Positions 1,038 to 15,220 of a stretch of DNA of 64,000 nucleotides are shown one piece after another. Within the stretch, counting starts at the first letter, position 1; the number at the start of each line of letters is the position of its first letter. Source of the stretch: Bacteroidales bacterium (GTDB lineage Bacteria; Bacteroidota; Bacteroidia; Bacteroidales; Marinilabiliaceae); the NCBI GenBank assembly GCA_015061285.1, contig SUWW01000003.1, positions 1 through 64,000 of the forward strand. The letters are read 5' to 3'. Below the pieces are notes generated by a model, which did not search any database, was not told the origin of the DNA, and saw only the letters and a list, made by a program, of their open reading frames with translations. The position numbers and the translations under genes are program-made.

Positions 1038-2072
1038 ATGCCTGCAAATAAAAACGCTCAACTGAGATACCAGATTCTGGACAACTGCTTCAAGAACTTC
1101 AATCGTAAGTATACGTTTGAGGACTTGATGGAGATTGTCGGTGATAAACTATACGATCTTCTCGGTACACGCGTCAGCACTCGGCAGCTTAGGGTGGACA
1201 TAGAGAATATGAGAAATCGTCCGTATAACGCTCCTATCAAGGCATATCTTTCGGGCGACGGCAAGAAGCGTTACTATAGGTATGAGGATCCCGAATATAG
1301 CATTTTCAACAATCCGCTTTCTCCAGAAGAACTTACGAACCTTCGCTCTACCATAGAGATGCTTGGCAGATATAGAGGTATACCATCTAACGCATGGCTC
1401 GAAGAGGTCATCTCGAAACTTGAATGCCGCTTCGACGTGAAGCCGAATAGTGACAGTGTCATTGAGTTTGAGCAGAACGAGCAACTCAAAGGCTTGGAGT
1501 TTCTTTCGGACTTGATAGATGCGACGGTTAACCATCAGCCAATGTCGTTAACGTATCGCTCATACAAAGGGATGGAGCAAACGTCGCTAATACATCCTTA
1601 TTACCTAAAGCAGTTTAACAATCGCTGGTTTTTGTTCGGAATAGAAGTGAATGAGCAATATGGCAATCGCATAACAAACAGAGCGTTGGATAGAATTGTG
1701 CGCTTCGAGGTCAAGACAGATGTCGCGTTTGTGCCGAATGAGAGTGAAGATTTCAAGCAATACTTTAGAGATATAGTTGGCGTTACCGTTCCTGAGGATC
1801 ATCCTACGCCCGAAAGGATAGTGTTGAAGTTTGACGAAGGTCGTTTCCCTTATGTGGTATCGAAGCCGATACACCACACGCAAGAGGTGATTGAAGAGAA
1901 CGAGCATACTATTAGTATCATGGTTAGGCCAAATAAGGAGCTCGAAGCACAGATATTCTCATTCGGACCGCAGGTTGAGGTGCTTGAACCTGAGTGGCTG
2001 AGGCAGCGGATAGCGGGAAAAATAGAGGAAGCGAGAAAAAAATATTTTGGTGTGCAGAAAGAGTGCACATAG
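1038..2072 (+). CDS. WYL-domain transcriptional regulator
   Basis: A 344-aa protein. Residues about 5-60 form a winged HTH of the HTH_11 type (QILDNCFKNF...STRQLRVDIENMR). Residues about 150-240 form the WYL domain (MSLTYRSYKG, then HPYYLKQFNNRWFLFG, then NRALDRI). A C-terminal WCX-like part extends to about residue 335. WYL proteins of this layout (CapW, BrxR) are dimeric regulators that control phage-defence operons, and the WYL pocket is thought to sense a ligand. Its stop codon directly follows a perfect inverted repeat (2051-2069) in front of the next gene's -7 box, so it probably controls the downstream operon. No clear promoter of its own is seen. It may be read from the upstream lipoprotein promoter. 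Family assignment is firm; the target is inferred. Confidence 0.9.
   Translation: MPANKNAQLRYQILDNCFKNFNRKYTFEDLMEIVGDKLYDLLGTRVSTRQLRVDIENMRNRPYNAPIKAYLSGDGKKRYYRYEDPEYSIFNNPLSPEELTNLRSTIEMLGRYRGIPSNAWLEEVISKLECRFDVKPNSDSVIEFEQNEQLKGLEFLSDLIDATVNHQPMSLTYRSYKGMEQTSLIHPYYLKQFNNRWFLFGIEVNEQYGNRITNRALDRIVRFEVKTDVAFVPNESEDFKQYFRDIVGVTVPEDHPTPERIVLKFDEGRFPYVVSKPIHHTQEVIEENEHTISIMVRPNKELEAQIFSFGPQVEVLEPEWLRQRIAGKIEEARKKYFGVQKECT
2051..2069. promoter_or_regulatory. Candidate WYL operator, copy 1
   Basis: TGTGCA-gaaagag-TGCACA, a perfect 6-7-6 inverted repeat. Its centre lies 19 nt upstream of the first base of the -7 box at 2079, so it covers the -33 region, where no TTG box is present. A second palindrome with the same arms, spacer length and promoter spacing is at 8582-8600. 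Binding by the WYL protein encoded just upstream is an inference. Confidence 0.6.
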
Positions 2073-2078
2073 GGAGGG

Positions 2079-2086
2079 TAACTTTG
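2079..2086 (+). promoter_or_regulatory. -7 box TAACTTTG for the methylase-kinase operon
   Basis: An exact TAnnTTTG match, followed by GCAAG, with no TTG upstream. The expected start of transcription is about 2093, giving a leader near 50 nt before the ATG at 2143. Confidence 0.6.
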
Positions 2087-2142
2087 CAAGTGCAAACATG
2101 AAAAATGCAGTAAATTTAAGTTGAACTCTAATCTTTTTACTA

Positions 2143-4506
2143 ATGACGCAGTTCTCTACTCTGACATCGGCAGCTAAGGCAATTGTAATTAACTTCTTCA
2201 ACACACAGATGAAGAAGAATGCATCCTCGTCTCCGAGTGTGCAGCTCATGGTGTCTCTATACTCACTTATGCCAGATGCAGAGACAAATGTGGTCGAAAG
2301 TCTGAAAGAATACTTAATTGTTTTGTCTGACATTATTTCAGAAAAAGAAATTGGTGTTCTCAAAGCAGAGTATTCTGCTGTTATAAAGTACTGCGTTGAT
2401 TATGGCAATGCCAATAGCCATAGCGAACTGAGTAGGCATGTACCGCAGTCATTGATTGATTTGTGCATGAGCATGGCAGCCCCCCAAGCTGGAAGTCTTG
2501 TCTATTTGCCTTATTCTGGAGTTGGCAGTTTTGCATATAATTTATCAGGTTGTAATATTGAAGGCTTCGAGGATGACGTTAAGTCATGGGCTATTGCTCA
2601 AATACTTTTGCATTCTCAAGGCATTGAGTCTGACATTAAACTTGGGGATGAGTATGTAATAGGAGATAAACTCTACGATTATATTTTCACTTACCCACCA
2701 ATGGCGTTGTGTGTTTTTTGTGCAGAGACAATAACTAATACCATTCATAATTTAATCACAAAGCTCTTGACCAATAATGGTGAGTTGTATTGTATGCTGC
2801 CATTAGATTTCTGCTATAGCAACAACGGCTGGTTTGAAGTCCGCAATATTCTCAAGAATTACCCTGGACAATATAGCGCACTTGTTATTAGTTTTTCTCC
2901 CTTAATGCTTCCTGTAATAGGCGTTAGTCTTTGTCTTCTTCGCATAAAGAAGGACAATGTCGGTTCTGTTACGCTTATGGACGCATCTGATAGTGAAAAA
3001 TTTTACATAAAAGAGCATATTAGGGGTTACAAGCTCAATACGTACTCAATCATAGAGGCATTGAAGAAACATGATGAGCGGTACGTTTGGGAAGGAACAT
3101 CAAACCAACTCTCTAACGATACTAATCTACTTCCCTCGAGCTATCTTGCTTCTCAAGTCATACTTTCTCCAAAAGAAGGAGAAAATAGTTTTCAACTTTC
3201 TGAGATCATTACTATCATTCCTACAGAGAAACAAACGGATAGACAAGAATGTCCAATTATCGGAATGAGGGAATTATCCTCATCGTACTTGAACTGTGAT
3301 ATAGACATAAGTACTATTGAAACTAAAGCTGCGGCAGCTAATGTTATCACTTCGGATTGTCTCCTTGTAGGCTTCATAGGAGGGAAGTTCAAGGTTGGAA
3401 GACTTCATGGGGTAACCCCCAATTCTCCTGTTGCATTGAGATATGAGGTGACACCAATAAAGATCTCTTCTGACGTTATTACAGAAGATTTTCTGCTCCG
3501 TTGTATAATGTCTAAGCAATCGGAACGTCAAGCTCGTCTGTTGTCAACTGGTGTTACTATCACCCGTTTGAATAAGCAGGCCTTACTGTCAATAGTTATA
3601 AATGTACCTACTTTGAAGGAGAAGCAAGATGCTCTTTGCAAGGAAGATACTCGCAGCAGTTTGACAGACGCAGATCGTAAGATAATCGAAACTTATGAGG
3701 AGTTTCGTATGGACATGCACATGAAAAAACATGCCATTGGTCAGACTTTGTTCAATCTCAATAATTGGTGGGATGCACTACAATCAGCCCGCAAGGAGGG
3801 CAATGGTGTTGTTTATGACAGTGCTACAACGGGTCGAATTCGCAAGGTATCCGTTGCCTCTATCTATGACAATATACAAAAGGCTTTGGATCAATTGCAA
3901 CAGCAGATAAGTAGGTTTGATAGAGGTAATGGCTTGGCAACAGAGGAAATCGACCTTCCTGACTTTATCGAGAATTACATAGAAACGCATAAAAGTCCCA
4001 TTTTCCAATATGACGACTTTGATGCAAAAAAATACTATGTTTCAGCGCCTATCTTTGACGAGAAGAAAGAAGAGCTTACTTTTGAATTTGCAATGTTTGC
4101 CCCCCAAGCACTAACCATGGTATTTGATAATATAATTAGCAATGCATGTAGTCATGGATTCGTTGGGCGTGAGGATAATCCTGAAGGAAATATAATCAGA
4201 TTTGATCTTTCATCTGAGGGGACTTATCAAATCATTACTATTTCAAATAATGGGAAGCCTGTTGATGATGAGGTTAATGAGAACTTCGTTTTCACTTATA
4301 GTAAAAGCACACAGAATGGTAAGGAGCATTATGGTATAGGTGGTTACGAAGTGAAGCGTCTTATGCGCGAATTTGGAGGTGATGCGGAGTTTATTTCTGA
4401 TCCTGAATCAGAATTCCCTGTTACCTATAAACTCATTTTTTATAATACTGGTATTACTGACTTTACTGAATTATTAAACCACTATGACAAGGGAGGTTAT
4501 ATATAA
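2143..4506 (+). CDS. Fusion: N6-MTase-like / HsdS-like / histidine-kinase-type ATPase
   Basis: A 787-aa multidomain protein. Residues about 1-310 look like the HsdM/N6-adenine methyltransferase fold: an N-terminal helical part, a motif I-like PYSGVGSF (123-130), an acidic GFEDD (141-145) and motif IV as TYPPM (183-187). The catalytic [DNS]PP[YFW] is therefore altered and activity is doubtful. Residues about 325-500 resemble a type I specificity subunit segment (SSYLASQVILSP, then SDCLLVGFIGGKFKVGRL, then LLSTGVTITRLNKQALLSI, then LKEKQDAL). Residues about 515-600 are helical, with a candidate phospho-acceptor His530 in KKHAIGQTL. Residues about 640-765 form a GHKL ATPase: N-box FDNIISNACSHG, then SNNGKPVD, then G2 box YGIGGYEVKRLM. 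The gene overlaps the receiver gene by 23 bp. I know of no named system with this order. The inferred role is a DNA-sensing kinase. Confidence 0.8.
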   Translation: MTQFSTLTSAAKAIVINFFNTQMKKNASSSPSVQLMVSLYSLMPDAETNVVESLKEYLIVLSDIISEKEIGVLKAEYSAVIKYCVDYGNANSHSELSRHVPQSLIDLCMSMAAPQAGSLVYLPYSGVGSFAYNLSGCNIEGFEDDVKSWAIAQILLHSQGIESDIKLGDEYVIGDKLYDYIFTYPPMALCVFCAETITNTIHNLITKLLTNNGELYCMLPLDFCYSNNGWFEVRNILKNYPGQYSALVISFSPLMLPVIGVSLCLLRIKKDNVGSVTLMDASDSEKFYIKEHIRGYKLNTYSIIEALKKHDERYVWEGTSNQLSNDTNLLPSSYLASQVILSPKEGENSFQLSEIITIIPTEKQTDRQECPIIGMRELSSSYLNCDIDISTIETKAAAANVITSDCLLVGFIGGKFKVGRLHGVTPNSPVALRYEVTPIKISSDVITEDFLLRCIMSKQSERQARLLSTGVTITRLNKQALLSIVINVPTLKEKQDALCKEDTRSSLTDADRKIIETYEEFRMDMHMKKHAIGQTLFNLNNWWDALQSARKEGNGVVYDSATTGRIRKVSVASIYDNIQKALDQLQQQISRFDRGNGLATEEIDLPDFIENYIETHKSPIFQYDDFDAKKYYVSAPIFDEKKEELTFEFAMFAPQALTMVFDNIISNACSHGFVGREDNPEGNIIRFDLSSEGTYQIITISNNGKPVDDEVNENFVFTYSKSTQNGKEHYGIGGYEVKRLMREFGGDAEFISDPESEFPVTYKLIFYNTGITDFTELLNHYDKGGYI

Positions 4507-5761
4507 AGTTCTTTGGGTTGACGATTTGAACCGTGATAAGAACAATAAATTGACAGATTTCTATGAAGGTTGGCAGCTCAAAGCGGAGAAGTACAATATA
4601 GAGCTTGTTCCTTTTGACAATTGGGAAGAAGCAGAAAAGTCATTGAGAAAAGATTTCGACGAGTATTCTGCCATTATTCTTGATGCCAATTGCAAAATTC
4701 ACAAGGAAGATACCGAGCAGGAAGAGTTCATTACCGCTGTGCTTCCATCACTCACAAACATTTTTGGAGAGAAACGCAGTTTATTGCCTTGGTATATTCT
4801 GTCTGCTGGCACGATGACCAATTTCGGCAAGATTGTCAATGGTGCTCGTTACCAGCATTCAAAGCATGAGGAGGATTGGGGCGAGATGCTTTATCTAAAA
4901 GACGTCAGAGAAGGCGGGAACGCCCCAGAAAAGCTTTTCGAAAATATCGTACGAGTTGCAAAGGACATGGCAATGAATGTTGTCCTTTTTCGCCATCATG
5001 ATACGTTCTGCTATTTGGGTCAAGACAAGTTAATTGATGCAAGAGCACGAAAATATATGCTACGCATGTTGAGCGCATTACATTACCCTGAGGAAAATAT
5101 TAAGTATGAGTATGAAGCAAATCCACTTCGTAAAATACTAGAGTATTTGTTTCGCTCTGCCAGAAAGCAAGGATTACTTTCACCATATTGTTTTGACAAG
5201 GAAGATCATGTGAATCTTACATATTCGAGTCTTTATCTGAAAGGTGCTACCATCAATTTGAAAGACAAGGAAAATGGAATGGAAGGAGCTATCCGTTGGG
5301 GAAATAAAAAAGATTGTGTGTTTCCTGATAACGTAGCGAACATAGTAAGGGGCATTCTCGTGTATGCGAATGTCGATTCCCATACATATGAAATTGAAGA
5401 TGCTCCATATCTGGTTGATGAAAACAGCAAGGATTTGTTCTTCGGATATGTGCTGCAACTATGCTATGTGATAAAATGGTATGGAGAGTTTGTGGAAGAA
5501 CATCCCGATGTTAAGGAAAACCAGCGCAAGCAAAGTGTGCGTAATATAAAAGGTACACGAATGAAAGTAGAGATGGGTGATATAATAGATAATAAATATT
5601 TGATAATGCGTGATGGTTCAACTTACTACTGTGGACGTTATAAACTTGACTCATCAATAACAATAAAAAGCGGTCAAGTCGTTATTGAAGAAGCAATTGC
5701 CAATGACGGTGAAGACAAGGCAAAATACCCTTACATTGCTACCAAAGTGAGGCAACTTTAG
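4484..5761 (+). CDS. Receiver-like response regulator with unknown C-terminal domain
   Basis: A 425-aa protein translated from an ATG inside the end of the kinase gene (23-bp overlap), which suggests coupled translation. Residues 5-150 resemble a phospho-receiver: acidic pair D13-D14 in VLWVDD, phospho-acceptor D67 in AIILDANC, Ser107/Thr110 in YILSAGT, and Lys139 in MLYLKDV. The stretch between beta-3 and beta-4 is longer than in classical receivers. Residues about 190-425 show no output domain I recognise (no HTH, nuclease or protease motif). They contain a helical part (RKILEYLFRSARKQG) and a beta-rich tail (KYLIMRDGSTYYCGRYKL). It is the obvious phosphotransfer partner of the preceding kinase and a candidate effector. 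The receiver call is moderate and the output function unknown. Confidence 0.75.
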   Translation: MTREVIYKVLWVDDLNRDKNNKLTDFYEGWQLKAEKYNIELVPFDNWEEAEKSLRKDFDEYSAIILDANCKIHKEDTEQEEFITAVLPSLTNIFGEKRSLLPWYILSAGTMTNFGKIVNGARYQHSKHEEDWGEMLYLKDVREGGNAPEKLFENIVRVAKDMAMNVVLFRHHDTFCYLGQDKLIDARARKYMLRMLSALHYPEENIKYEYEANPLRKILEYLFRSARKQGLLSPYCFDKEDHVNLTYSSLYLKGATINLKDKENGMEGAIRWGNKKDCVFPDNVANIVRGILVYANVDSHTYEIEDAPYLVDENSKDLFFGYVLQLCYVIKWYGEFVEEHPDVKENQRKQSVRNIKGTRMKVEMGDIIDNKYLIMRDGSTYYCGRYKLDSSITIKSGQVVIEEAIANDGEDKAKYPYIATKVRQL

Positions 5762-5790
5762 ATGTAAGAATATCAATTCTTCAGGGGAGA

Positions 5791-5818
5791 TTGTCTGTAC
5801 AAGAGGAGAGTAAATTTG
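5791..5818 (+). promoter_or_regulatory. Promoter TTG-N17-TAAATTTG for the membrane protein
   Basis: The -7 box TAAATTTG is at 5811-5818 and a TTG at 5791-5793 (spacing 17, slightly short). The TTG is part of a small inverted repeat TTGTctgtACAA (5791-5802). This palindrome has different arms from the TGTGCA sites, so regulation by a different factor is possible. Confidence 0.4.
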
Positions 5819-5959
5819 CAAATAGGAAAGTCACGATGAAGATATGACAGAACAAAAATTAGCGAACGTTGTTATATGGGACATCAAAGAGATTATTCGC
5901 AACCTCTACGACGTGTGACAACAGAGTGCGTAATAGGAAAAAGAAAGGTAGTGTAAGGT

Positions 5960-7054
5960 ATGGTAGCAGATACATTAATTATAACGAAAAGTATCAAAGA
6001 ATCGATACATAATGTTGATGTTGGCTTAGATTCAATTTCATTTGAGCTACAATGTTGTAATGCGTCTTTACAATCTTTAGTAGACTCTGTCAATGTACCT
6101 ACGCAAATCACGACTGATTTACATAGATATGTTGAGCATTCGATAAATGGTTCTTCTTGGGATAAATGGATTGATATATTACAGTTTACAATCCCAGCAT
6201 TGGTAACTGTTGTAATGTTTTTTCTTGGATATCGTTTAAACTCCAGAAACGAACAAAAAAGGAGCGAGATTGAAATAAAAAGAAATCAAGAAAAGAAGTT
6301 AGCCTCTATGAAAGCTGACTGTTTAGCAATTAAGCAGTACGTAAATGCACTAAAGGGTCCTATAGACAATTTATGTTCCCATATAAATGAATTCACTCAA
6401 AAGTTGAAAACTAGCCGAGATGTTCAACTCGAAGCGTTTACATTAAGCGATATATCTGTTGATTGCCTAGCGCAATACGACTCTAGAATTTTGACTAAAT
6501 TGTATTTAACTAATAGAAAAGGAAAAATAGAAGACAAAGCGATCAATCTTTATCACGTTATTAGTAAGATAGAATTCTTGTCGAAAGTCACAGATATTCT
6601 CACAGAGCACTATTCTGAATACAAAGAACATTCTATTTCAAATATGAAACAATGGAATGATGTTTATGAAAAAGTTATCGCTTATGTAAGCGATCTTGAT
6701 TTTAGAAAACGAAACGGCAACATGTTTGATGAAATGTATAAATATCTCGAACAATGCAATATCGTCAATAATCATATTGAAGCAAAAGAACTTACTGATA
6801 ATGTTTATAAAAAATATCTAAATTGGTTAATTACAAATAGTTATTATCAGAACAACGGAGATGCTAAGATTATTGGTGATTTGTTGAACAAGGGGATCTT
6901 TATATACGATGGATTAAAAACAACATGTTTCCTAGGATATGCTCAAATATTTGAGGAGGTTGCCCAAAGTATGAATAGAGCCTATGATGATTTGGTGAAA
7001 TGTCTTAATAGACTTGACTCCAACAATTTTGTAGATCCAAAAGATATAGAGTAG
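5960..7054 (+). CDS. Unknown protein with one transmembrane helix
   Basis: A 364-aa protein of no family I recognise. There is a polar N-terminal part (1-65), one strong hydrophobic helix (about residues 73-95, DILQFTIPALVTVVMFFLGY) and then a charged stretch RNEQKRSEIEIKRNQEKK. This layout suggests the C-terminal 270 residues face the cytoplasm and start as a coiled coil. The rest is helical and rich in Lys, Asn and Ile. The DNA is visibly more AT-rich than the core genes, which suggests transfer. It is the next gene after the receiver gene, with its own likely promoter at 5791-5818. Membrane-anchored proteins of this kind often act as killing effectors in defence loci. That role is only inferred here. 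Confidence 0.65.
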   Translation: MVADTLIITKSIKESIHNVDVGLDSISFELQCCNASLQSLVDSVNVPTQITTDLHRYVEHSINGSSWDKWIDILQFTIPALVTVVMFFLGYRLNSRNEQKRSEIEIKRNQEKKLASMKADCLAIKQYVNALKGPIDNLCSHINEFTQKLKTSRDVQLEAFTLSDISVDCLAQYDSRILTKLYLTNRKGKIEDKAINLYHVISKIEFLSKVTDILTEHYSEYKEHSISNMKQWNDVYEKVIAYVSDLDFRKRNGNMFDEMYKYLEQCNIVNNHIEAKELTDNVYKKYLNWLITNSYYQNNGDAKIIGDLLNKGIFIYDGLKTTCFLGYAQIFEEVAQSMNRAYDDLVKCLNRLDSNNFVDPKDIE

Positions 7055-7216
7055 AATTACAATATATGTGTAATCCACTAAGTGAAACTGTCTTCGAGTA
7101 TCATATAGCGAAGTGTATAGTGGTCAGTCTATTATATAACTAGCGCACAAGCGTAGATTTTGAAATCGCTCGCCTACCGGAAAAAAGATAAGGTGTACTA
7201 AACGGTAAGAAGTAAT

Positions 7217-8272
7217 ATGAACCAAGAGAATAAAGACATACTGCTACGATTGCTTGCGCAGCATAAAGAGTTGGGAATATCCAACCAGTTGGACTATGAT
7301 AAGTTCTACTTGTACTCCATCATCACTCACTCTACAGCCATTGAGGGCAGTACGGTGACGGAGGTGGAGGCGCAATTGCTATTTGACGAAGGTATCACAT
7401 CGAGCAAGCGCACCATAGTAGAGCAGAATATGAATCTCGACCTAAAGGCGGCCTATGACTATGGTCGTGCTTGGATAAAGCGACACGAAGAGATAACGGT
7501 CGATTGGCTTATCACGCTTGCTGGCAAAGTGATGGCAAGGACGGGTTCGGAATATAAATCGTTGGGCGGAACGTTCGATGCTTCGAAAGGCGAGCTACGA
7601 AAGTTGAACGTAACAGCAGGCGCTGGCGGCAAGTCGTACATGAGCTATATCAAGGTGCCGCAAAAGCTTGAAGCGTTCTGCAAGGAACTTAATGCACGTC
7701 GAATGTCCATTGACACGACAGACATAGCTGCTATTTACGAACTGAGTTTCTGGGCACACTTTGAACTTGTCACCATACATCCTTGGGCAGACGGCAATGG
7801 CAGAACTTGCCGACTGCTGATGAACTTGTTGCAAATGGAATATGATGTATTGCTAACAAAGGTGCAAAAAGAAGACAAGGCAGAATACATACAAGCGCTC
7901 ATAGACACCAGAGAGAAGGAAGATATTGCAATCTTTGTGGACTGCATGACCAAGTTGCATTGCAATCATCTGAAACAAGATATCGACCAATTTGTCAAGA
8001 CTGTAGCATCGGGAGTGGTCGATAATTACTACTATGAGAAGGAAATGGTCGATAAATGGTCGATAAAGCCATCTTTAGCAAAAAAACTATCCAATATTTT
8101 GGCGTATATGGTCGATAAAGACGAGATACGAACAGAGATGATAGTCGCCGAGTTTGGACTTACCGAAACGACAGCCAAGCGTTATCTGCGTCAGCTCACA
8201 GAATATGGTTACCTGGAATCAAAGGGCGGAAATCGCAATAGAACATACGTTAAGCATCATGTTAGAAACTGA
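7217..8272 (+). CDS. Fic-domain protein, class II (self-inhibited)
   Basis: A 351-aa protein. The Fic core motif HPWADGNGR (188-196) is complete for catalysis (His188, Asp192, Gly-Asn-Gly, Arg196), with Trp where Phe is usual. Such enzymes transfer AMP or another nucleotide from NTPs to Ser/Thr/Tyr of target proteins. An inhibitory helix with the [S/T]xxxE[G/N] pattern, STAIEG (Ser39 to Gly44, Glu43), lies N-terminal to the core, which defines class II. The C-terminal 70 residues look like a winged helix (IRTEMIVAEFGLTETTAKRY). Target unknown. It stands alone behind a 160-nt gap. After its stop the same frame stays open to 8506. Confidence 0.92.
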   Translation: MNQENKDILLRLLAQHKELGISNQLDYDKFYLYSIITHSTAIEGSTVTEVEAQLLFDEGITSSKRTIVEQNMNLDLKAAYDYGRAWIKRHEEITVDWLITLAGKVMARTGSEYKSLGGTFDASKGELRKLNVTAGAGGKSYMSYIKVPQKLEAFCKELNARRMSIDTTDIAAIYELSFWAHFELVTIHPWADGNGRTCRLLMNLLQMEYDVLLTKVQKEDKAEYIQALIDTREKEDIAIFVDCMTKLHCNHLKQDIDQFVKTVASGVVDNYYYEKEMVDKWSIKPSLAKKLSNILAYMVDKDEIRTEMIVAEFGLTETTAKRYLRQLTEYGYLESKGGNRNRTYVKHHVRN

Positions 8273-8506
8273 AATCCACAATTACCTAAAGGCTCAGTTC
8301 TGCTTTGGAAAGACGATCTTCCAAATTCAGTTGCCGTAGTGTCAGAAATAAAGGTGGCATACCAAGGCGAAGATGTTTCAATAAGTACTCTTTCGACAAC
8401 GATGAAATGGTACAAGACAAAACACATTACACCTGGTTCATATTGGACGTTCAACGACAAGTTGCTCAGCGATATTTATGATGAGACGTATCCATTTGAC
8501 GAGTAG
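8273..8506 (+). pseudogene. Open remnant in frame after the Fic stop
   Basis: Directly after the Fic TGA the same frame encodes 77 residues without a start codon near its beginning: KGSVLLWKDDLPNSVAVV, then TMKWYKTKHITPGSYW, then DKLLSDIYDETYPFDE, stop at 8504-8506. It is rich in aromatic residues and looks like real protein. It is either a lost C-terminal extension of the Fic protein or the tail of another gene that lost its start. I do not recognise the family. A terminator follows at 8533. Confidence 0.45.
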
Positions 8507-8532
8507 CTGGAACAGCAAGAGTATAATGTATT

Positions 8533-8565
8533 GAGGTCAAGATGTAATAATATTGACCTTTTTTA
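8533..8565 (+). terminator. Rho-independent terminator after the Fic unit
   Basis: Stem aggtcaa / ttgacct around a 12-nt AT-rich loop, followed by six T. It separates the Fic unit from the next promoter. Confidence 0.8.
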
Positions 8566-8580
8566 TTGAAATAATTATTA

Positions 8581-8601
8581 CTGTGCAGATAGGCTGCACA
8601 G
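8581..8601. promoter_or_regulatory. Candidate WYL operator, copy 2
   Basis: Arms CTGTGCA and TGCACAG around the 7-nt spacer gataggc (perfect 7-7-7 palindrome). It shares TGTGCA-N7-TGCACA with 2051-2069. The CTTTG of the following -7 box begins 13 nt after the last A of TGCACA at both sites, so the geometry is identical although the surrounding sequence differs. Confidence 0.6.
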
Positions 8602-8609
8602 GTCGATTT

Positions 8610-8617
8610 TTACTTTG
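8610..8617 (+). promoter_or_regulatory. -7 box TTACTTTG (one mismatch)
   Basis: It is followed by CAAC, much like TAACTTTGCAAG at 2079. No TTG lies at the -33 position; the palindrome 8581-8601 occupies that place. Confidence 0.45.
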
Positions 8618-8640
8618 CAACAGAATCTAACAAGAGAAAT

Positions 8641-8773
8641 ATGAGCAATACAAATATTATAGGTAGTGTAAAGCGAGATCTTTGGTTTACATCTCACGTT
8701 TGAAGATGAGTTTGATATATACAAACTTCAACCAAAGACGTTTATATACAACAGGGACTATTGGATAGATTAA
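8641..8773 (+). pseudogene. Collapsed small-gene remnant (paralogue tail of the 92-aa gene)
   Basis: An ATG at 8641 opens only 20 codons (MSNTNIIGSVKRDLWFTSHV) and stops at 8701-8703. In another frame, 8699-8773 encodes FEDEFDIYKLQPKTFIYNRD and YWID, nearly identical to the last 24 residues of the 92-aa protein at 9409-9687. A deletion seems to have joined a different 5' end to this tail. The promoter with the copy-2 operator lies just upstream, so this was once the first gene of a regulated unit. Confidence 0.55.
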
Positions 8774-8889
8774 TATGCTAAAATCAAATAACAACTAACG
8801 TTATGTCAAACTAAACACAAAGAAGAATGGAAGAGAAGAAAGACCAAATTGAGGAAATCGAAATTGATGGCCGCGAAATGCTAAGACAA
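8699..8889 (+). repeat. Tandem duplication, copy A
   Basis: It covers the tail of the small gene, the spacer and the first ~20 codons of the retropepsin-like gene. The spacer gttatgtcaaactaaacaca is found again at 9709-9728. Copy B starts at 9613, about 910 bp downstream. Confidence 0.75.
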
Positions 8890-9361
8890 TACGATGGTCT
8901 ATCATTGAAATTCGATGCAAAGCATCTTATAGCATTCGATACCAAATCTATGGAAGACAATCGTTTTATTGTGGATTTGATTGGTGTGAAAGATGAACAA
9001 GGCAGGCAGCTATGCTTTATGGTAGATACTGGCTCAGTAGTAGACTTTATATTTACTCCTGCCATAAAATATCTAGAAACAAAGCTTCTTGAATCTTATA
9101 CAGACTTGACTGTACAGACTTTTGATGGTACAGACGACAATGAGCCTAAAGGCTTATATGAGGTTGAGTTTATGCTTAACAATAGCATTACGTACAAACG
9201 AAAAGCAGTTAGCATAAATAAACAAATAGCCTATAGGCGAAAATAGAGCTTACATTGGCTTGTTGAGTTTTGATTTTCTTGTTGCTAATGAGCTTGTGAT
9301 ATTCCCACAATGGGGATTTATGACACAGCTATTACAAGACGAAGAAGAACCCGAAAAGTAA
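8827..9361 (+). pseudogene. Frameshifted retropepsin-like aspartic protease gene
   Basis: The first frame (8827-9246, 139 aa) has the aspartic-protease active-site motif FMVDTGS (Asp67-Thr-Gly-Ser), followed by an FDG turn (TVQTFDG). It then ends in a short nonsense tail (AYRRK). A neighbouring frame carries on with IGENRAYIGLLSFDFLVANE, then LVIFPQWGFM, to a stop at 9359-9361. This matches the closing G-[IL]-L-x-x-D-[FY]-L strand and helix of retropepsin-like domains. One indel around 9225-9240 would restore a ~178-aa protein. No signal peptide is present, so it would be cytoplasmic. A second, shorter copy of its start is at 9735. Confidence 0.65.
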
Positions 9362-9408
9362 TCCTCAAATTGAGTTTGAATTAGCATACGAATTATCATA
9401 TACAGAAC

Positions 9409-9687
9409 GTGGCACAGACAGTTATGGTTCAACAGGGAAATGACAAATCACGCTACAGAGTTTATATCAATCGCAAGCCAAGCAAAGCTTTCGATTCTGA
9501 ACTAGAAGCGGAACTATACTTCTTTCATGTCCTATGGGGAAATTGCGAAAGAGTAGTTTTACGCAACGAGACGAAATCAAAAATTGTCTGGTGCTTTGAG
9601 AAGGTAGCGAAGTTCGATGACGAGTTTGATATATATAAGCCAAAACCAAAGACATTTATATATAGCAATGACTACTGGATAGATTAA
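9409..9687 (+). CDS. Small hypothetical protein (92 aa)
   Basis: It starts with GTG at 9409, or with ATG at 9424 (MVQQGNDKSRYRVYINRKP), which I find equally likely. It is a basic, aromatic-rich cytoplasmic protein ending DEFDIYKPKPKTFIYSNDYW and ID. It is not a family I recognise. Its last 24 residues are repeated as a remnant at 8699-8773, so the gene was duplicated together with the protease gene. It could encode a small partner of the protease-like protein. That is a guess from adjacency only. Confidence 0.5.
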   Translation: MAQTVMVQQGNDKSRYRVYINRKPSKAFDSELEAELYFFHVLWGNCERVVLRNETKSKIVWCFEKVAKFDDEFDIYKPKPKTFIYSNDYWID

Positions 9688-9797
9688 TATGTCAAAATCA
9701 AACCAACGTTATGTCAAACTAAACACAAAGAAGAATGGAAGAAAAGAAAAACCAAACCGAAGAAGTAGAAATTGATGGTTACGAAATGCTGAGAAAA
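9613..9797 (+). repeat. Tandem duplication, copy B
   Basis: The second copy of 8699-8889, diverged by substitutions and small indels (for example a 6-nt difference in the spacer). Copy order shows a [92-aa gene + protease gene] unit repeated head to tail, with both outer ends decayed. Confidence 0.75.
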
Positions 9798-9922
9798 GCA
9801 TAGAATGGCACAGATACGTACGCAATGACAAAGAATATAAAGGCGTTATCTCCAGTCTTAACCAACTACTAACCAAAGTCAAAGAGGAATGTTTTGAAGA
9901 ACGTCAACTATCTTTGTTCTAA
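9735..9922 (+). pseudogene. Remnant of a second protease copy joined to an unknown gene tail
   Basis: 9735-9803 encodes MEEKKNQTEEVEIDGYEMLR and KA, a close copy of the start of the protease-like gene at 8827, then stops. From 9803 a different frame encodes EWHRYVRNDKEYKGVISSLN and ends QLSLF with a stop at 9920-9922. This is the tail of a gene I cannot identify. The junction near 9800 marks a deletion. Confidence 0.5.
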
Positions 9923-9941
9923 ACCAAGAACAATATATTTG
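9913..9941 (+). promoter_or_regulatory. Promoter TTTG-N17-TATATTTG
   Basis: TTTG at 9913-9916 and an exact -7 box TATATTTG at 9934-9941, 26 nt before the start of the 83-aa gene. The spacing of 17 is a little short. Confidence 0.45.
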
Positions 9942-9967
9942 CGTGTACGAGATTAATGTAAAAAGTC

Positions 9968-10219
9968 ATGGAAACAGTTTTTGAACATAATATGACCAAG
10001 GATGAAATGGTAGCTGTAATGGGGTTTGACGATTGGGTTAAAGAAGACTTCACAGGGTGGTCTCAAATAGACCATTACGGGCTTATTTATAGCTTATACA
10101 AATATAGGGGCGAATATGAAATAGCCCAAAAGTATGCAAGCAAAATTCCTAATACACAACATAAAATGTTTGAAGTATGTTATCACGATTTTGCCGAGCA
10201 ACGCAAGTCAGCGAAGTAA
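9968..10219 (+). CDS. Small hypothetical protein (83 aa)
   Basis: METVFEHNMTKDEMVAVMGF begins a short acidic, helical protein with several aromatic residues (DWVKEDFTGWSQIDHYGLIY) and a KRKSAK-like basic end. No membrane segment, signal or motif that I recognise. It has a likely promoter of its own at 9913-9941. Its last 12 nt overlap the end of the phage remnant on the other strand. Small acidic proteins of this kind in islands can be antitoxins or phage-related accessory proteins. I cannot choose between these. Confidence 0.5.
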   Translation: METVFEHNMTKDEMVAVMGFDDWVKEDFTGWSQIDHYGLIYSLYKYRGEYEIAQKYASKIPNTQHKMFEVCYHDFAEQRKSAK

Positions 10220-10838
10220 ATTATAGAGCATCTTCTTAGCTTCATATTTAGATACACCACTGTTCATTATCTTATTTAGCATAACATTGAGACCATAATT
10301 TGATTCGTTAGCAATATTAATCAGTTCACCAACTTGTAAAACTCCGTTTTTTTCAAAATACTTACGCAAAGCATCACATCGCTCTTTATAGCCGAGTCCA
10401 TTGTATTTAATAGTTTCAAAATTCACAGCCTCAACACCATAATTATTCAATATTTTTACGTATCTGTCACGAGCATAAAGTTGAGTACATGTTTCGGCTA
10501 TCTTTTCGTCCAGAGAACCTTGTAAAATCTTAATCTTTCTTGTTGCTTTTGAATGTACATTTTCGTGGAATAGACACTCAATAGCATACTCTTCGTGAAA
10601 GGTCAAAACTTGTTTTTTGTAGAGTTTAGCAAAAGCAGACTGGAGTTTCTCAGCAGGGCAAAAAATAGACCCATCTTCAAGTTTTATACGAGCGGTAGAT
10701 ATGGTAAGACTATTATCGCGCCACTTCATTGTCGAGGTATTCGCGCATTTCGGCAACGCTCGGCATAATAGGCACAGCATAGCACATGCAGTTCGGGTGC
10801 CAGCCTTCAAAGACGAACGTCTTTGAATATCCACTTAC
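10208..10838 (-). pseudogene. Decayed Mu-like phage head-morphogenesis (gpF-type) gene fragment
   Basis: From 10838 downward one frame reads SKTFVFEGWHPNCMCYAVPI, then MPSVAEMREYLDNEVAR. The HPNC-x-C-x-x-x-PI signature is typical of the C-terminal part of Mu gpF / SPP1 gp7 minor head proteins. The frame stops near 10710. A second frame then carries 170 residues to 10208 (DNSLTISTARIKLEDGSIFC, LTFHEEYAIECLFHENVHSK), including a possible metal-binding HENVH. In intact phage genes the two parts should be one protein. The N-terminus is absent, so this is a leftover of a Mu-like prophage at the edge of the island. Confidence 0.55.
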
Positions 10839-10860
10839 GGCAATATGATTAGTGTATTAT

Positions 10861-11844
10861 TTATATGTTGTCATACGGATAGACAACGCCCCATTCGTGG
10901 CGCAAGCTATCCATTTGTTGCATTATGCTGATGGTTTCGGCATGAGGCATTAGTGGCGATTCGCTTAGCCCCGCTTCGATGCACCTTCGACACTCCATTA
11001 CTTGATATTCGTAGCCAGTAACCATATCTGCAGGCTTGGCAATACGTTCTACAAGTTCATAATTACGATAAACTTCAACGAGTTCTGGGCAGTTCACGTT
11101 ATCGACGCGTATGTAGCCTTCGGTGCCGTTTATTATGCCTTGTCTGTCGTTTAGGCATAGTGCGCCAGCTTGTAAATTGGCCATGCGCCCGTCGGCAAAG
11201 TTGAGCGAGATGCACTCTTGCATATCCATGCCTTCAGGACCAAGTTGCACATTGCTGACCGTCTTGACAATGTCGGTGCCGAAATACATACGCGCAAAGT
11301 TGAGTACGTATACTCCCAAATCGAGCAGCGCACCACCACAGAGGTCGGCACGCACTATGCGCTCTTTATGCTCCATCATATAGCAGAGAGTGGCAGTGAG
11401 CAGACGAGGTTCACCTATGATGCCGCTATTCATCAGCTCTCTTATTTTGAGCGAGAGAGGCATATAGCGAGTCCAGATGGCTTCGGTGATAAACACATTT
11501 TCGCTCTTAGCTGTCTCGATAAGTATTGAGGCTTGGCGTGCGTTGGCTGTGAACGCTTTCTCTACAAGCACATGTTTGTGGTGCTTGATGGCAAGCATAG
11601 CATGGTCGAAATGGTGAGAGTGCGGCGTGGCGATGTAGACAAGGTCAATATCCTTATCGTTCACCAATTCTTCGTAGCTGTCATACGCCTTGTCGATGCC
11701 GTGTTCACGCGCAAATATTGTGGCTTTTTCGAGCGAGCGCGATGCTATGGCGCTCACCTCGTAGCCGTCAAGAGAAGCCAATGAGATAGTCATTTTATGG
11801 GCTATCCAACCGGCTCCTATTATTCCTACACGAAATGGTTTCAT
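10861..11844 (-). CDS. Gfo/Idh/MocA-family NAD(P)-dependent oxidoreductase
   Basis: A 327-aa protein. The N-terminal Rossmann domain opens with VGIIGAGWIAHKM (residues 6-18). YIATPHSHHFDHAMLAI and HVLVEKAFT give the EKP-like motif as EKA. The C-terminal alpha/beta domain contains GGALLDLGVYVLNFARMYFG, the usual GGG-x-x-D-x-G/H region. Such enzymes oxidise or reduce sugars, inositols and trans-dihydrodiols. The substrate cannot be told here. It lies 2 nt after the alcohol dehydrogenase and is the last gene of the operon reading away from the promoter at 13725. It is the first core-type gene after the island. Confidence 0.9.
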   Translation of the reverse strand: MKPFRVGIIGAGWIAHKMTISLASLDGYEVSAIASRSLEKATIFAREHGIDKAYDSYEELVNDKDIDLVYIATPHSHHFDHAMLAIKHHKHVLVEKAFTANARQASILIETAKSENVFITEAIWTRYMPLSLKIRELMNSGIIGEPRLLTATLCYMMEHKERIVRADLCGGALLDLGVYVLNFARMYFGTDIVKTVSNVQLGPEGMDMQECISLNFADGRMANLQAGALCLNDRQGIINGTEGYIRVDNVNCPELVEVYRNYELVERIAKPADMVTGYEYQVMECRRCIEAGLSESPLMPHAETISIMQQMDSLRHEWGVVYPYDNI

Positions 11845-13047: not shown

Positions 13048-13680
13048 TTATTTCTTTGGGTATCCTATTGGATGATTAAGGATAGCATTTTGCGTATCAG
13101 AAAGTTTTAACTCTGTCTTGAGAGCGTCCTTATCCATAGTAGCGCGAGGCACGGTGGCCAATCCAAGAGCTTCGCACGCCAAATCGATATTCTGGCTTAC
13201 ATATCCAGCATCAATAGCGCCAGAAATTGTTGGACCGTTGGTGCTTGCGCCACGGAATTTAGCATTGTCGGATACAATAACGAGGCTTATAGGTGCTTCG
13301 GCTGCAAACTTCTGTCGGCCTGCTACTGCGTCGCGTAAATCTTTGTCAGACACTTTTTGCAACGCGTTATCCTTAGCTATGTAGAACCAAGCGCCATCTT
13401 TGCTACATACATACACCGAGATGTCTTGAGCGTTGATGGCCGTAGGTGCCGTGAGATGACCGTCGGGACGATTTATGCCAACTGCAGCCCAAAGCAACTG
13501 ACTAAGTTTCATATCGTCTATTTCCTTATCGCTATACTCGCGCACCGATTTGCGTTGTTGAAGCGATTGAAAAAGCGTCATCTTCACATCTTTGTTTGGT
13601 TCTGGCAACTTTTTTACATCTTGCGCTGACGCGCTCATGCTTGCCACTATGAGGCTAAGCAACATAATAATTGTTCTCAT
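13048..13680 (-). CDS. Exported nitroreductase-family protein
   Basis: A 210-aa protein. Residues 1-19 form a Sec signal peptide (MRTIIMLLSLIVASMSASAQ, cut after SASA). The mature part has the nitroreductase FMN-binding start QQRKSVREYSDKEID and a central PSAG-like segment LTAPTAINAQDISVYV, and ends with LNHPIGYPKK, typical for this family. FMN enzymes in the periplasm are unusual but common among Bacteroidota for this subfamily. It reduces nitro or quinone compounds; the natural substrate is unknown. It is the first gene of the operon, 45 nt after a well-formed promoter. Confidence 0.88.
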   Translation of the reverse strand: MRTIIMLLSLIVASMSASAQDVKKLPEPNKDVKMTLFQSLQQRKSVREYSDKEIDDMKLSQLLWAAVGINRPDGHLTAPTAINAQDISVYVCSKDGAWFYIAKDNALQKVSDKDLRDAVAGRQKFAAEAPISLVIVSDNAKFRGASTNGPTISGAIDAGYVSQNIDLACEALGLATVPRATMDKDALKTELKLSDTQNAILNHPIGYPKK

Positions 13681-13724
13681 ACTTGATTAGTTTATGAATG
13701 CGTAATGTGTTAATTACTAATTCT

Positions 13725-13754
13725 CAAACCTACATATTATCGCGATAAAAACAA
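13725..13754 (-). promoter_or_regulatory. Promoter TTG-N19-TAGGTTTG for the redox operon
   Basis: On the minus strand TTG (13754-13752), a 19-nt spacer and TAGGTTTG (13732-13725). This is an exact fit to the Bacteroidota consensus, 45 nt before the nitroreductase ATG. From here to 13977 I see only AT-rich DNA without gene features. Confidence 0.75.
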
Positions 13755-13977
13755 TATCGTATGTACGCGATTTTTGTAGATGAGAAGAACAACTATAATT
13801 ATCGTTTTTTGCATAAATCCATAACGGCTGAAACAATATTATAATAACGCTATGGAAGTGAAAAGAATAAATAACTGACAACCAAAATAAAGCTAAGAAC
13901 CAGACACTTTACATATAGCATAATGGACTTTTGCCATTAATTCTCTCTGTCGGAAAAAACGCCAAAATTTTTCGAGA

Positions 13978-14103
13978 GTAAGTGAGAAACGGTATGAAGT
14001 TCACATCCGCAAGGGTGTGGATTGTTCGTGTTTATCCACTTACTTGGTTTGCTTGGCGGTTTACCTTCGACGGGGGATGAATGAGAAACGAATGGTTCAT
14101 ACC
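13978..14103 (+). other. Structured intergenic segment before the RhuM gene
   Basis: Several nested inverted repeats: GTAAGTG (13978) with CACTTAC (14037-14043), an inner hairpin CACATCC-gcaa-GGGTGTG (14002-14019), and GGTATGAA (13991) with TTCATACC (14096-14103). GAGAAACG-like words occur at both ends (13984, 14083). It could be a cis-acting RNA leader, a small RNA or a miniature mobile repeat. I do not recognise a known RNA family. Confidence 0.4.
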
Positions 14104-14127
14104 CTCTTTTATTATGGTACATATTGG

Positions 14128-14135
14128 TAACTTTG
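14128..14135 (+). promoter_or_regulatory. -7 box TAACTTTG for the RhuM-family gene
   Basis: An exact TAnnTTTG match 17 nt before the chosen ATG at 14153. It lies inside the longer open frame that begins at 14081, so it argues for the shorter protein. Confidence 0.55.
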
Positions 14136-14152
14136 AGCAATTCGTAAATAGT

Positions 14153-15154
14153 ATGGATAACGGAAATATAATAATATATCAGAGCGAAGATGGCTTGACT
14201 CACATCGAAGTGCGCCTTGAGCAAGATACAGTTTGGCTTACGCAACAACAACTTTGCGATTTGTATCAAACAAGCAAGTCCAATGTTAGTGAGCATATTA
14301 AGCACATTTTTGAAGATGGTGAATTGGAGAGAGATGTGGTAGTTCGGAAATTCCGAACTACCACTCAACATGGAGCGATCGAAGGCAAAACACAAACGCA
14401 TGATGTAACATATTACAACCTCGATATGATAATATCGCTTGGTTATCGCATTCGTTCGGTGGTAGCTACGCACTTCAGACGTTGGGCGACTGAGCGATTG
14501 AAAGAGTATATAATAAAGGGATTCGCGTTAGATGATGAGCGGCTTAAGCAACTTGGTGGAGGCAACTATTGGCATGAGCTACTTGACCGCATTCGTGACA
14601 TTCGTTCTTCGGAACGTGTTATGTATCGTCAGGTGTTGGATCTTTATGCTACAGCAGTCGACTATGATCCTCGTAGTGAGCAATCGGTTTTGTTCTTCAA
14701 AATAGTGCAAAACAAACTTCACTACGCAGCGCACGGACATACCGCAGCTGAAATTATCTATGGTCGTGCTGATAATACTAAGCCTTTTATGGGTATGACT
14801 TCGTTCAAAGGCGAATGGCCTACATTGCAAGATGCAAAAGTCGCAAAGAACTATTTGTCGAGCGAAGAGCTCAAAATACTTAATAATCTCGTGTCTGGTT
14901 ATTTCGATTTTGCTGAGATTCAGGCCATTCGTCATAATCCTATGTATATGACGGATTATGTTACGCAACTTGATACCATTCTGTCGTCAACGGGACAAGA
15001 ACTACTGTCTGATGCTGGCAGCATTAGCCACGAGGAGGCTATTGAGAAGGCCAAAATGGAATACGACCTTTGGCGTGAGCACAATCTTTCGCCTGTTGAG
15101 CAAGCTTACTTTGAAACGATAAAGAAGCTTAGTAAAAAGAAAAAAGGTAAATAA
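14153..15154 (+). CDS. rhuM: RhuM-family protein
   Basis: A 333-aa protein starting MDNGNIIIYQSEDGLTHIEV. The family signature is present: the N-terminal region VRLEQDTVWLTQQQLCDLYQ, then TSKSNVSEHIKHIFEDGEL, then YYNLDMIISLGYRIRS, then FRRWATERLKEYIIKGFALD. The C-terminal region has HGHTAAEIIYGRAD and ends in a lysine-rich tail. RhuM was first described on a Salmonella pathogenicity island. Relatives are spread on islands and are associated with Fic/DOC or defence loci, but no biochemical role is established. The upstream 14081 start is rejected because of the promoter box at 14128. It is monocistronic. Confidence 0.92.
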   Translation: MDNGNIIIYQSEDGLTHIEVRLEQDTVWLTQQQLCDLYQTSKSNVSEHIKHIFEDGELERDVVVRKFRTTTQHGAIEGKTQTHDVTYYNLDMIISLGYRIRSVVATHFRRWATERLKEYIIKGFALDDERLKQLGGGNYWHELLDRIRDIRSSERVMYRQVLDLYATAVDYDPRSEQSVLFFKIVQNKLHYAAHGHTAAEIIYGRADNTKPFMGMTSFKGEWPTLQDAKVAKNYLSSEELKILNNLVSGYFDFAEIQAIRHNPMYMTDYVTQLDTILSSTGQELLSDAGSISHEEAIEKAKMEYDLWREHNLSPVEQAYFETIKKLSKKKKGK

Positions 15155-15168
15155 CACGAAAAAAAACA

Positions 15169-15192
15169 AGGGCTGCCCAATTGAGCAGCCCT
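15169..15192 (-). terminator. Terminator of the CoA-transferase gene
   Basis: Stem AGGGCTGC / GCAGCCCT with an 8-nt loop. On the minus strand it is followed by CTTGTTTTTTTT, so it ends transcription from the CoA-transferase. It may also stop the converging RhuM transcript. Confidence 0.8.
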
Positions 15193-15220
15193 AATTCGTA
15201 TCTGAACTTTTGTCTTACTG

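Follow-up and report, generated by a model that had tools for sequence, protein, structure and literature searches.

A candidate mobile two-component defence module of Bacteroidota with a pseudo-methylase sensor kinase

Several described defence systems bear on the gene pair reported here. Detocs is a three-gene family of defensive two-component systems whose best-known effector is an ATP-degrading PNP (PMC11249213). The DNA-damage-activated GHKL kinase CapK and the repressor CapS adjoin diverse immune operons (PMC13373217), a minimal histidine kinase joined to a Schlafen RNase occurs beside BREX systems (PMC12839542), and WYL regulators of the BrxR/CapW kind co-localise with defence operons, among them those of type I and type IV restriction (PMC9122601). 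HEPN domains of the DUF4145 type occur fused to restriction endonucleases (PMC3710099), and a receiver (REC) domain has been proposed as part of the defence effector Cam2 of type III CRISPR (PMC11229360). The pair lies within positions 1 to 64,000 of contig SUWW01000003.1 from a Bacteroidales bacterium of the Marinilabiliaceae (assembly GCA_015061285.1), a stretch of 64,000 nucleotides called the window below, and encodes a histidine kinase with a methylase-like and HsdS-like head, followed by a response regulator. With moderate confidence we read it as a mobile defensive two-component module, in which a pseudo-methylase sensor kinase would signal to a response regulator carrying a HEPN-like, exchangeable effector.

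All features given here lie on the forward strand. The open reading frames (ORFs) of the kinase fusion (787 amino acids, 2143-4506; defined by ORF, family profile and AlphaFold model) and of the response regulator (425 amino acids, 4484-5761; ORF, alignment and structure model) share 23 bp, and upstream of them lies a gene for a WYL/WCX transcriptional regulator of 344 amino acids (1038-2072), in which both domains pass the Pfam cut-offs (WCX 3e-12, WYL 2.9e-7; PADLOC WYL 1.3e-26). AlphaFold models and family profiles agree on an HsdM-like domain, an HsdS-like domain, His-bearing helices and a GHKL ATPase in the kinase. The HsdM-like N6-methyltransferase (MTase) domain occupies residues 96-335 (2428-3147), and its catalytic motif IV is degenerate (TYPP). 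The HsdS-like target-recognition domain (TRD), residues 340-492 (3160-3618), is recognised through PADLOC, Methylase_S and HsdS chains, with the PADLOC type I specificity subunits (Specificity_I) matching residues 303-527 at 2.3e-9. A DHp-like helix pair, residues 492-552 and 571-593 in the secondary structure of the model (3619-3942), bears the candidate phospho-acceptor H530 (codon 3730-3732), identified by conservation, and the GHKL ATPase domain (4060-4458; Pfam HATPase_c 4.4e-7) has its N-box at N663/N667 and its G-box at G731/G733. The MTase and HsdS parts, weak or invisible in the window sequence alone, are clear across the family: at E ≤ 0.1 the Pfam model N6_Mtase matches 12 of 14 members (best 2.5e-43), HATPase_c 13 and Methylase_S eight (best 2.6e-6). 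The family profile matches EcoR124II M at 3.4e-38 (profile positions 76-377), sensor kinases at 1.3e-5 (positions 580-775) and HsdS chains at 9e-7 over the whole chain (469-529), no single stretch of the last falling below 0.01 on its own.

Motif IV, [ND]PP[FYW], is present in none of 21 kinases, as against all 12 of the HsdM proteins encoded beside kinases; three kinases (L042, L045 and L048) keep NPP with Leu instead, and in a second kinase set only L116 (NPPW) has the motif, of nine that could be read. The methylase head is therefore, to judge from its motifs, a pseudo-enzyme with an HsdM fold that lacks catalytic motif IV. The residues of a two-component kinase are by contrast intact, H530, N663, N667, G731 and G733 each being invariant across the 21 kinases. 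Of the 13 kinases in the second set, 12 keep H530, all keep N667, G731 and G733, and seven have Asn at 663. The HsdS-like and DHp parts of the L095 kinase did not align.

The response regulator opens with a REC domain (4484-4966) that contains the phospho-acceptor D67 (codon 4682-4684) and K139. There follow a conserved helical output domain (4967-5521) with R216 (5129-5131), E220 and H300 (5381-5383), which weakly resembles DUF4145/HEPN domains, and a C-terminal all-beta region (residues 350-425, 5531-5758, from DSSP of the model and the alignment) that is absent from shorter receivers. D67, K139 and S/T107 occur in all 21 receivers aligned and D14 in 20, the pattern expected of a REC domain, and both R216 and H300 are invariant. 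No Pfam, PADLOC or NCBIfam model matches the window receiver at E ≤ 1. Across the 21 receivers Pfam gives scattered weak matches, with no family hitting more than two members (best PDE8A_N, 0.0021), and with the output domain alone one of 20 members per family; neither a PNP nor a transcription-factor (DNA-binding) output was recognised among the matches of the 21. In PDB sequence searches the whole receiver profile finds response regulators best (0.011, over the REC part), and the output domain alone gives a best E of 0.052. VIA structural alignments of the receiver cover mainly residues 5-165 and list no HEPN chain, which does not exclude one; Foldseek's longer receiver alignments have root-mean-square deviations above 8, and a viral fold library yielded two matches below 0.001, one kinase and one receiver. 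The output domain has been exchanged in L134, where REC is followed by a Schlafen AlbA_2 domain (6.4e-15).

An earlier, sequence-only reading of the window had called the same three frames with the same ends, and the residues it singled out, D13, D14, D67, S107 and K139 in the receiver and H530 in the kinase, are all in place. Its fusion of N6-MTase-like, HsdS-like, His530-helix and GHKL parts is borne out by family profiles, Pfam and models; the domain searches, in which the HsdS and GHKL assignments could have failed, recovered the HsdM, HsdS, DHp and GHKL parts alike, and its receiver-like protein proves to have a true REC domain and a conserved helical domain. Its methylase survives as a fold but has lost the catalytic motif.

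The kinase gene lies directly 5' of the receiver gene in 36 of 37 loci, with gaps of -35 to +49 bp. These loci were found partly by receiver and partly by kinase (L041, L042, L045, L134 and L135), and the pairing count is least biased in those found by receiver. The kinase search matched 46 other genomes, of which seven were followed, most of the others matching the GHKL part alone. One receiver search contributed nine of 14 other genomes, the five weakest (E 2.8e-4 to 9.3e-4) being left out, another was used without the weakest of its 12 genomes (G122), and a later kinase search, with 15 genomes, added only G289 and G178, G066 being already included. L047 and L049 were dropped as duplicates of L037 and L039, and the close pairs L032/L058, L038/L046 and L056/L060 were retained. 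L051, with a kinase truncated to 448 amino acids, and L102, with its kinase in two frames at a contig edge, were counted as paired; L058 replaced L051 in the motif IV, identity and conservation comparisons. Outside the 37 stand L148 and the kinase matches L043 and L044 (G022, G154), whose ORFs include no family receiver by eye, although L044 has a single-domain receiver, also by eye.

Kinase and receiver distances are correlated (Mantel test, Spearman 0.66, p = 0.0005, 21 loci), as are those of HsdM and HsdS (0.51, p = 0.003, 11 loci), and no correlation was found between kinase and WYL (0.01, p = 0.43), kinase and HsdM (0.00, p = 0.42) or receiver and HsdM (0.08). Loci L056 and L060 have kinases 95-97% and receivers 98% identical, yet their WYL proteins share 52% and their HsdM proteins 21%; in L038 and L046 the kinase recognition domains are 86% identical, yet the HsdS proteins only 37%, so that the specificity of the neighbouring system is not mirrored in the kinase. 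From the correlations and these two comparisons it follows that the core is the kinase-receiver pair, around which WYL and HsdM/HsdS genes have been exchanged. A further locus from the window's genus, L148 (G403:C12, 7540-9499), has WYL and receiver genes and no kinase match in the 18 kb examined; in its receiver positions 67, 14 and 139 are Asn, Glu and Met, and R216, E220 and H300 are kept. Loss of the phospho-site along with the kinase is what a phosphorelay model would predict. L100, the one locus of the 37 with no adjacent kinase, speaks against that model, since its receiver keeps D67; for neither L148 nor L100 was a kinase elsewhere in the genome searched for.

The defence setting of the pair rests on its neighbouring genes. 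Of the 37 loci, 17 have type I restriction-modification (R-M) genes in view, and in 14 the first gene downstream, in the same orientation and no more than 400 bp away, is hsdM, at 12 bp or less or overlapping in nine of the 14. With 216 HsdM_N matches in 148 genomes of the phylum, and a genome size assumed to be 3.5 Mb, about 0.8% of random points would have an HsdM no more than 10 kb away; the nominal binomial probability of 14 in 37 is 4e-20, which, as the loci are non-independent and some are near duplicates, we take to mean simply very unlikely. HsdM labels were assigned by blastp, and N6_Mtase and HsdM_N were confirmed with Pfam in ten loci plus L050, L056, L059 and L117; for L060 N6_Mtase only was confirmed, the HsdM of L045 is annotated as a methyltransferase, and HsdS and HsdR labels were checked with Pfam in few cases. 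The human-gut record MT835483 (L032) has the order WYL, kinase, receiver, HsdM (Pfam-checked), HsdS, HsdR, and plasmid pFM-G13 of Myroides odoratimimus has WYL, 'N-6 DNA methylase', 'hypothetical', methyltransferase, subunit S, hypothetical, PLD protein, subunit R. Type IV restriction adjoins the module in L053 (GmrSD), L148 (GmrSD-like by blastp, after the receiver) and L134 (McrBC), the last (G289:C5, 298-6686) encoding a pseudo-methylase kinase, the REC-Schlafen AlbA_2 protein, an AAA protein that is McrB-like by eye and an McrBC-family protein. In L118 (G066:C124, 43-11188) the pair is part of a type III-A CRISPR operon, Cas10-Csm2-Csm3-Csm4-Csm5-kinase-receiver-Csx1-Cas6. Placement in restriction and other defence loci has thus occurred repeatedly.

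Three of these loci have further features of their own. The L032 record (MT835483.1 6431-31780), labelled 'Bacteriophage sp.', encodes a conjugation-coupling-like protein (5850-8030, by eye) and a complete type I R-M system, and may be an integrative element, not a phage. A SIR2-like protein of 1049 amino acids (13135-16284) lies between HsdM and HsdS of the module-bearing R-M operon in L050, and a NACHT-domain protein (3446-6328) lies between the type I HsdM/HsdS and the kinase-receiver pair in L117 (G138:C1).

The sequence-only reading had supposed that a type I DNA-recognition head was turned into a two-component sensor, with the receiver either acting as the effector or controlling it, and domains and pairing now support this. 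Its proposed check, whether the two genes travel together, came out in its favour, and to the defence setting it suggested can be added many relatives inside type I R-M operons, which it had not included. The WYL regulator that it counted in the system is indeed common (in view in 26 of 37 loci) but exchangeable, and falls outside the inseparable core.

In the mechanism we favour, the head would bind DNA, or a DNA-mimicking protein, without methylating it; binding would rearrange the long helix (492-552) linking the recognition domain to the His-bearing bundle, and phosphorylation of H530 would result; the phosphate would pass from H530 to D67; and phosphorylated REC would free or dimerise the HEPN-like domain, which might halt growth or cut RNA and so back up restriction. 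The WYL protein would control the expression level of the operon. Since relatives often adjoin anti-virus systems, the pair looks like a plug-in viral alarm.

A number of observations weigh against the reading of the pair as a defensive module with a HEPN-like effector. Type I R-M genes are missing from view in 20 of the 37 loci, some of which end at contig edges; the window shows no R-M gene at all, and its genome has no HsdM_N match. The CRISPR link rests on the single locus L118 and the output exchange on the single locus L134, and L100 keeps D67 in its receiver with no kinase match in the 12 kb examined. No methylase head is detectable in the kinases of L096, L097 and L118; the first two retain the HsdS-like part, DHp and GHKL, and the third resembles them, but in a weak match with high composition bias. 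The HEPN likeness is slight: hhalign of the output domain against eight DUF4145-type domains gives a score of 23.6 (E 0.0055, probability 6.6%), compared with E 0.3 for the REC part as a control, and this score was reached by none of 300 column shuffles and none of 47 decoy segments, but the best decoy, an HsdM segment, scored 21.6 and seven of 300 block shuffles did as well as the true alignment. No HEPN or DUF4145 Pfam model matches any of the 21 receivers, or the output domain alone of 20, and none of the 21 has the Arg or Lys 4-6 residues before H300 that the canonical HEPN motif Rx4-6H would require. The output domain as a proven HEPN RNase was rejected on this last ground; RNase activity may accordingly be absent, and the HEPN-like domain may be non-catalytic.

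Part of this evidence suits a different role, in which the receiver regulates the neighbouring restriction enzyme. The pseudo-M/S kinase would read free or unmodified sites, or compete with HsdM/HsdS, and the phosphorylated receiver would switch restriction through protein contacts, averting self-damage. The co-oriented hsdM genes directly downstream, so many of them at 12 bp or less or overlapping, favour this, as do an output domain without the canonical HEPN catalytic motif and the absence of any DNA-binding domain from the Pfam matches of the receivers; we nevertheless consider it rather unlikely, because so many loci, the window's included, have no type I system in view (with the caveat of contig edges), CRISPR and McrBC loci have the pair as well, neither kinase nor receiver co-evolves with HsdM, and the recognition domain does not track HsdS. 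An effector is favoured over regulation of R-M alone since the pair is kept where no R-M is in view, occurs in the CRISPR and McrBC loci and has once acquired a Schlafen output. A role as decoy or guard, in which the head would lure anti-restriction proteins (Ocr, ArdA and other DNA mimics) instead of reading DNA and the kinase would fire when restriction is attacked, seems to us less probable still. Linked HsdM is better conserved than HsdS (mean 30% versus 21%), and 7eew, an MTase solved with Ocr, is among the closest overall folds to the kinase. Among 18 close kinase pairs, not mutually independent, the MTase core is less conserved than the TRD in 16 and than the DHp in 17, as would fit a sensor under conflict (between the window and L053 identities are 30% for the MTase core, 43% for the TRD, 74% for the DHp and 82% for REC); over all 210 pairs, however, the trend vanishes (MTase core 25%, TRD 24%, DHp 21%), and the three kinases without a methylase-like head, which keep the HsdS-like part clearly in two cases and weakly in one, have no such bait.

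That the pair is instead a conventional two-component system that has borrowed a DNA-binding domain, controls housekeeping genes and plays no part in defence strikes us as most improbable. Solo kinase-receiver pairs do occur, that of L097 lying between genes that look housekeeping-like by eye, and WYL proteins serve as general regulators too. Against this, the pair is exchanged between defence operons, no transcription-factor output was recognised in the receivers, and presence is patchy: the receiver is found in two of 15 genomes of the genus, from which we conclude that the module is accessory, and a single-sequence query matches five of 395 genomes of the phylum, the window's own genome being included in both counts.

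The surroundings of the window locus add some detail. A Bacteroides-type -7 box, TAACTTTG (2079-2086; the consensus is TAnnTTTG), is a candidate promoter of the kinase gene, and the palindrome TTTGCAagTGCAAA (2083-2096) that overlaps it is a candidate operator; both are weak candidates, as neither is conserved over the 13 loci examined, among which no shared operator palindrome was found 5' of the WYL or kinase gene. Residues 1-150 of the WYL protein, where BrxR and CapW would have the winged helix that goes with their ssDNA-controlled repression, match no helix-turn-helix (HTH) model at E ≤ 1 in a Pfam scan. Downstream, 5960-7054 encodes a protein of 364 amino acids in which no family passes its Pfam cut-off and a membrane helix is suspected by eye; the gene has its own Bacteroides-type -7 box at 5811. 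The Fic gene at 7217-8272, 1.5 kb downstream, has a product 74% identical to the Fic protein encoded between HsdS and HsdR in L059 (Bacteroides muris), a likeness that hints at a past R-M setting of the window. Other candidate traces of such a setting were rejected: a 24-codon frame 3' of the receiver (5844-5915), resembling an HsdM N-terminus by eye, matched weakly in five of 118 other genomes (E 0.18 to 0.89), and in a search for relics at 5701-10900 the Fic gene alone matched well, the rest having E of at least 0.014. HSDR_N has three weak matches in the window's genome, one of them just above the cut-off together with its neighbours. The start of the contig (1-60) resembles the 3' end of an rRNA operon by eye, and the defence-like genes sit between it and metabolic genes; the same-genus genome G396, considered as a possible empty site, matches the window only from 10871 onward, but its contig starts near there. 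As queries, the window proteins found no match among the plasmids or the viral contigs searched.

We know of no earlier case in which an R-M enzyme has been turned into a signalling sensor. If the preferred reading is right, this would be the first example of R-M recognition wired by His-Asp phosphotransfer to an effector; it would offer a testable answer to the question of how a cell could sense an encounter between its restriction system and a phage, or a block that the phage imposes on that system. Type I and type IV restriction, as well as immunity by type III CRISPR, would thereby be connected with classical two-component signalling. The loss of kinase and phospho-site in L148 and the exchange of HEPN-like for Schlafen output in L134 make the wiring directly testable. 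A wider and speculative possibility, which we think unlikely as it stands, is that the immunity of Bacteroidota uses the pair as an all-purpose alarm chassis standing guard over other systems. The dead enzyme would be the bait, anti-restriction DNA mimics, S-adenosylmethionine depletion or unmodified DNA the triggers, and a phosphorelay would set off a suicide effector directed at RNA; heads and effectors would be swapped to suit type I R-M, McrBC, GmrSD or type III CRISPR.

Among the papers listed as matches in our search, whose scope did not extend to subscription papers and preprints, none reports, in its accessible text, a fusion of methylase, HsdS and kinase that is partnered by a receiver. 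In the legend to Fig. 6F of the DefensePredictor paper (PMC13092281), HATPase and REC are among the abbreviations given for predicted systems that await validation; the make-up of these systems is not visible in the accessible part, and one of them may be related to the kinase-receiver pair. Compared with a type I modification enzyme (HsdM plus HsdS), the fusion has lost motif IV, has one recognition domain, and carries DHp and GHKL. BrxR and CapW carry a WCX part, and the window regulator resembles them in its WYL and WCX domains; here, however, the WYL gene is an exchangeable neighbour of the kinase-receiver core. As in DUF4145-type HEPN domains, an Ex3[KR] motif (in 17 of 21 receivers) and an invariant His are present, whereas the Rx4-6H Arg is missing throughout, the invariant Arg lies in an earlier helix, and REC precedes the output. 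Cam2, as far as its available description goes, has a membrane part and no associated kinase, in contrast to the kinase and receiver of the L118 CRISPR locus. Schlafen and kinase domains are combined in defence loci in the fusions described beside BREX as well, but in the accessible account Schlafen is on the kinase there, whereas in L134 it is on REC, after a pseudo-methylase kinase. With CapK/CapS the pair shares a GHKL kinase gene pair adjoining diverse defence operons; CapK, however, is an HTH-STAS-GHKL protein that phosphorylates a STAS serine on the repressor, with neither a methylase/HsdS part nor REC in the part of the description available, and in the window kinase no Pfam STAS or HTH model matches at E ≤ 1. 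Detocs is like the pair in its kinase-to-receiver logic and its effector in a defence setting. The pair, however, has an inseparable core of only two genes and a dead HsdM-HsdS fusion as its sensor, and its outputs are of HEPN-like or Schlafen type; a PNP was not found. Detocs is the nearest kind, and the pair would be a defensive two-component system with a sensor for which we know of no precedent.

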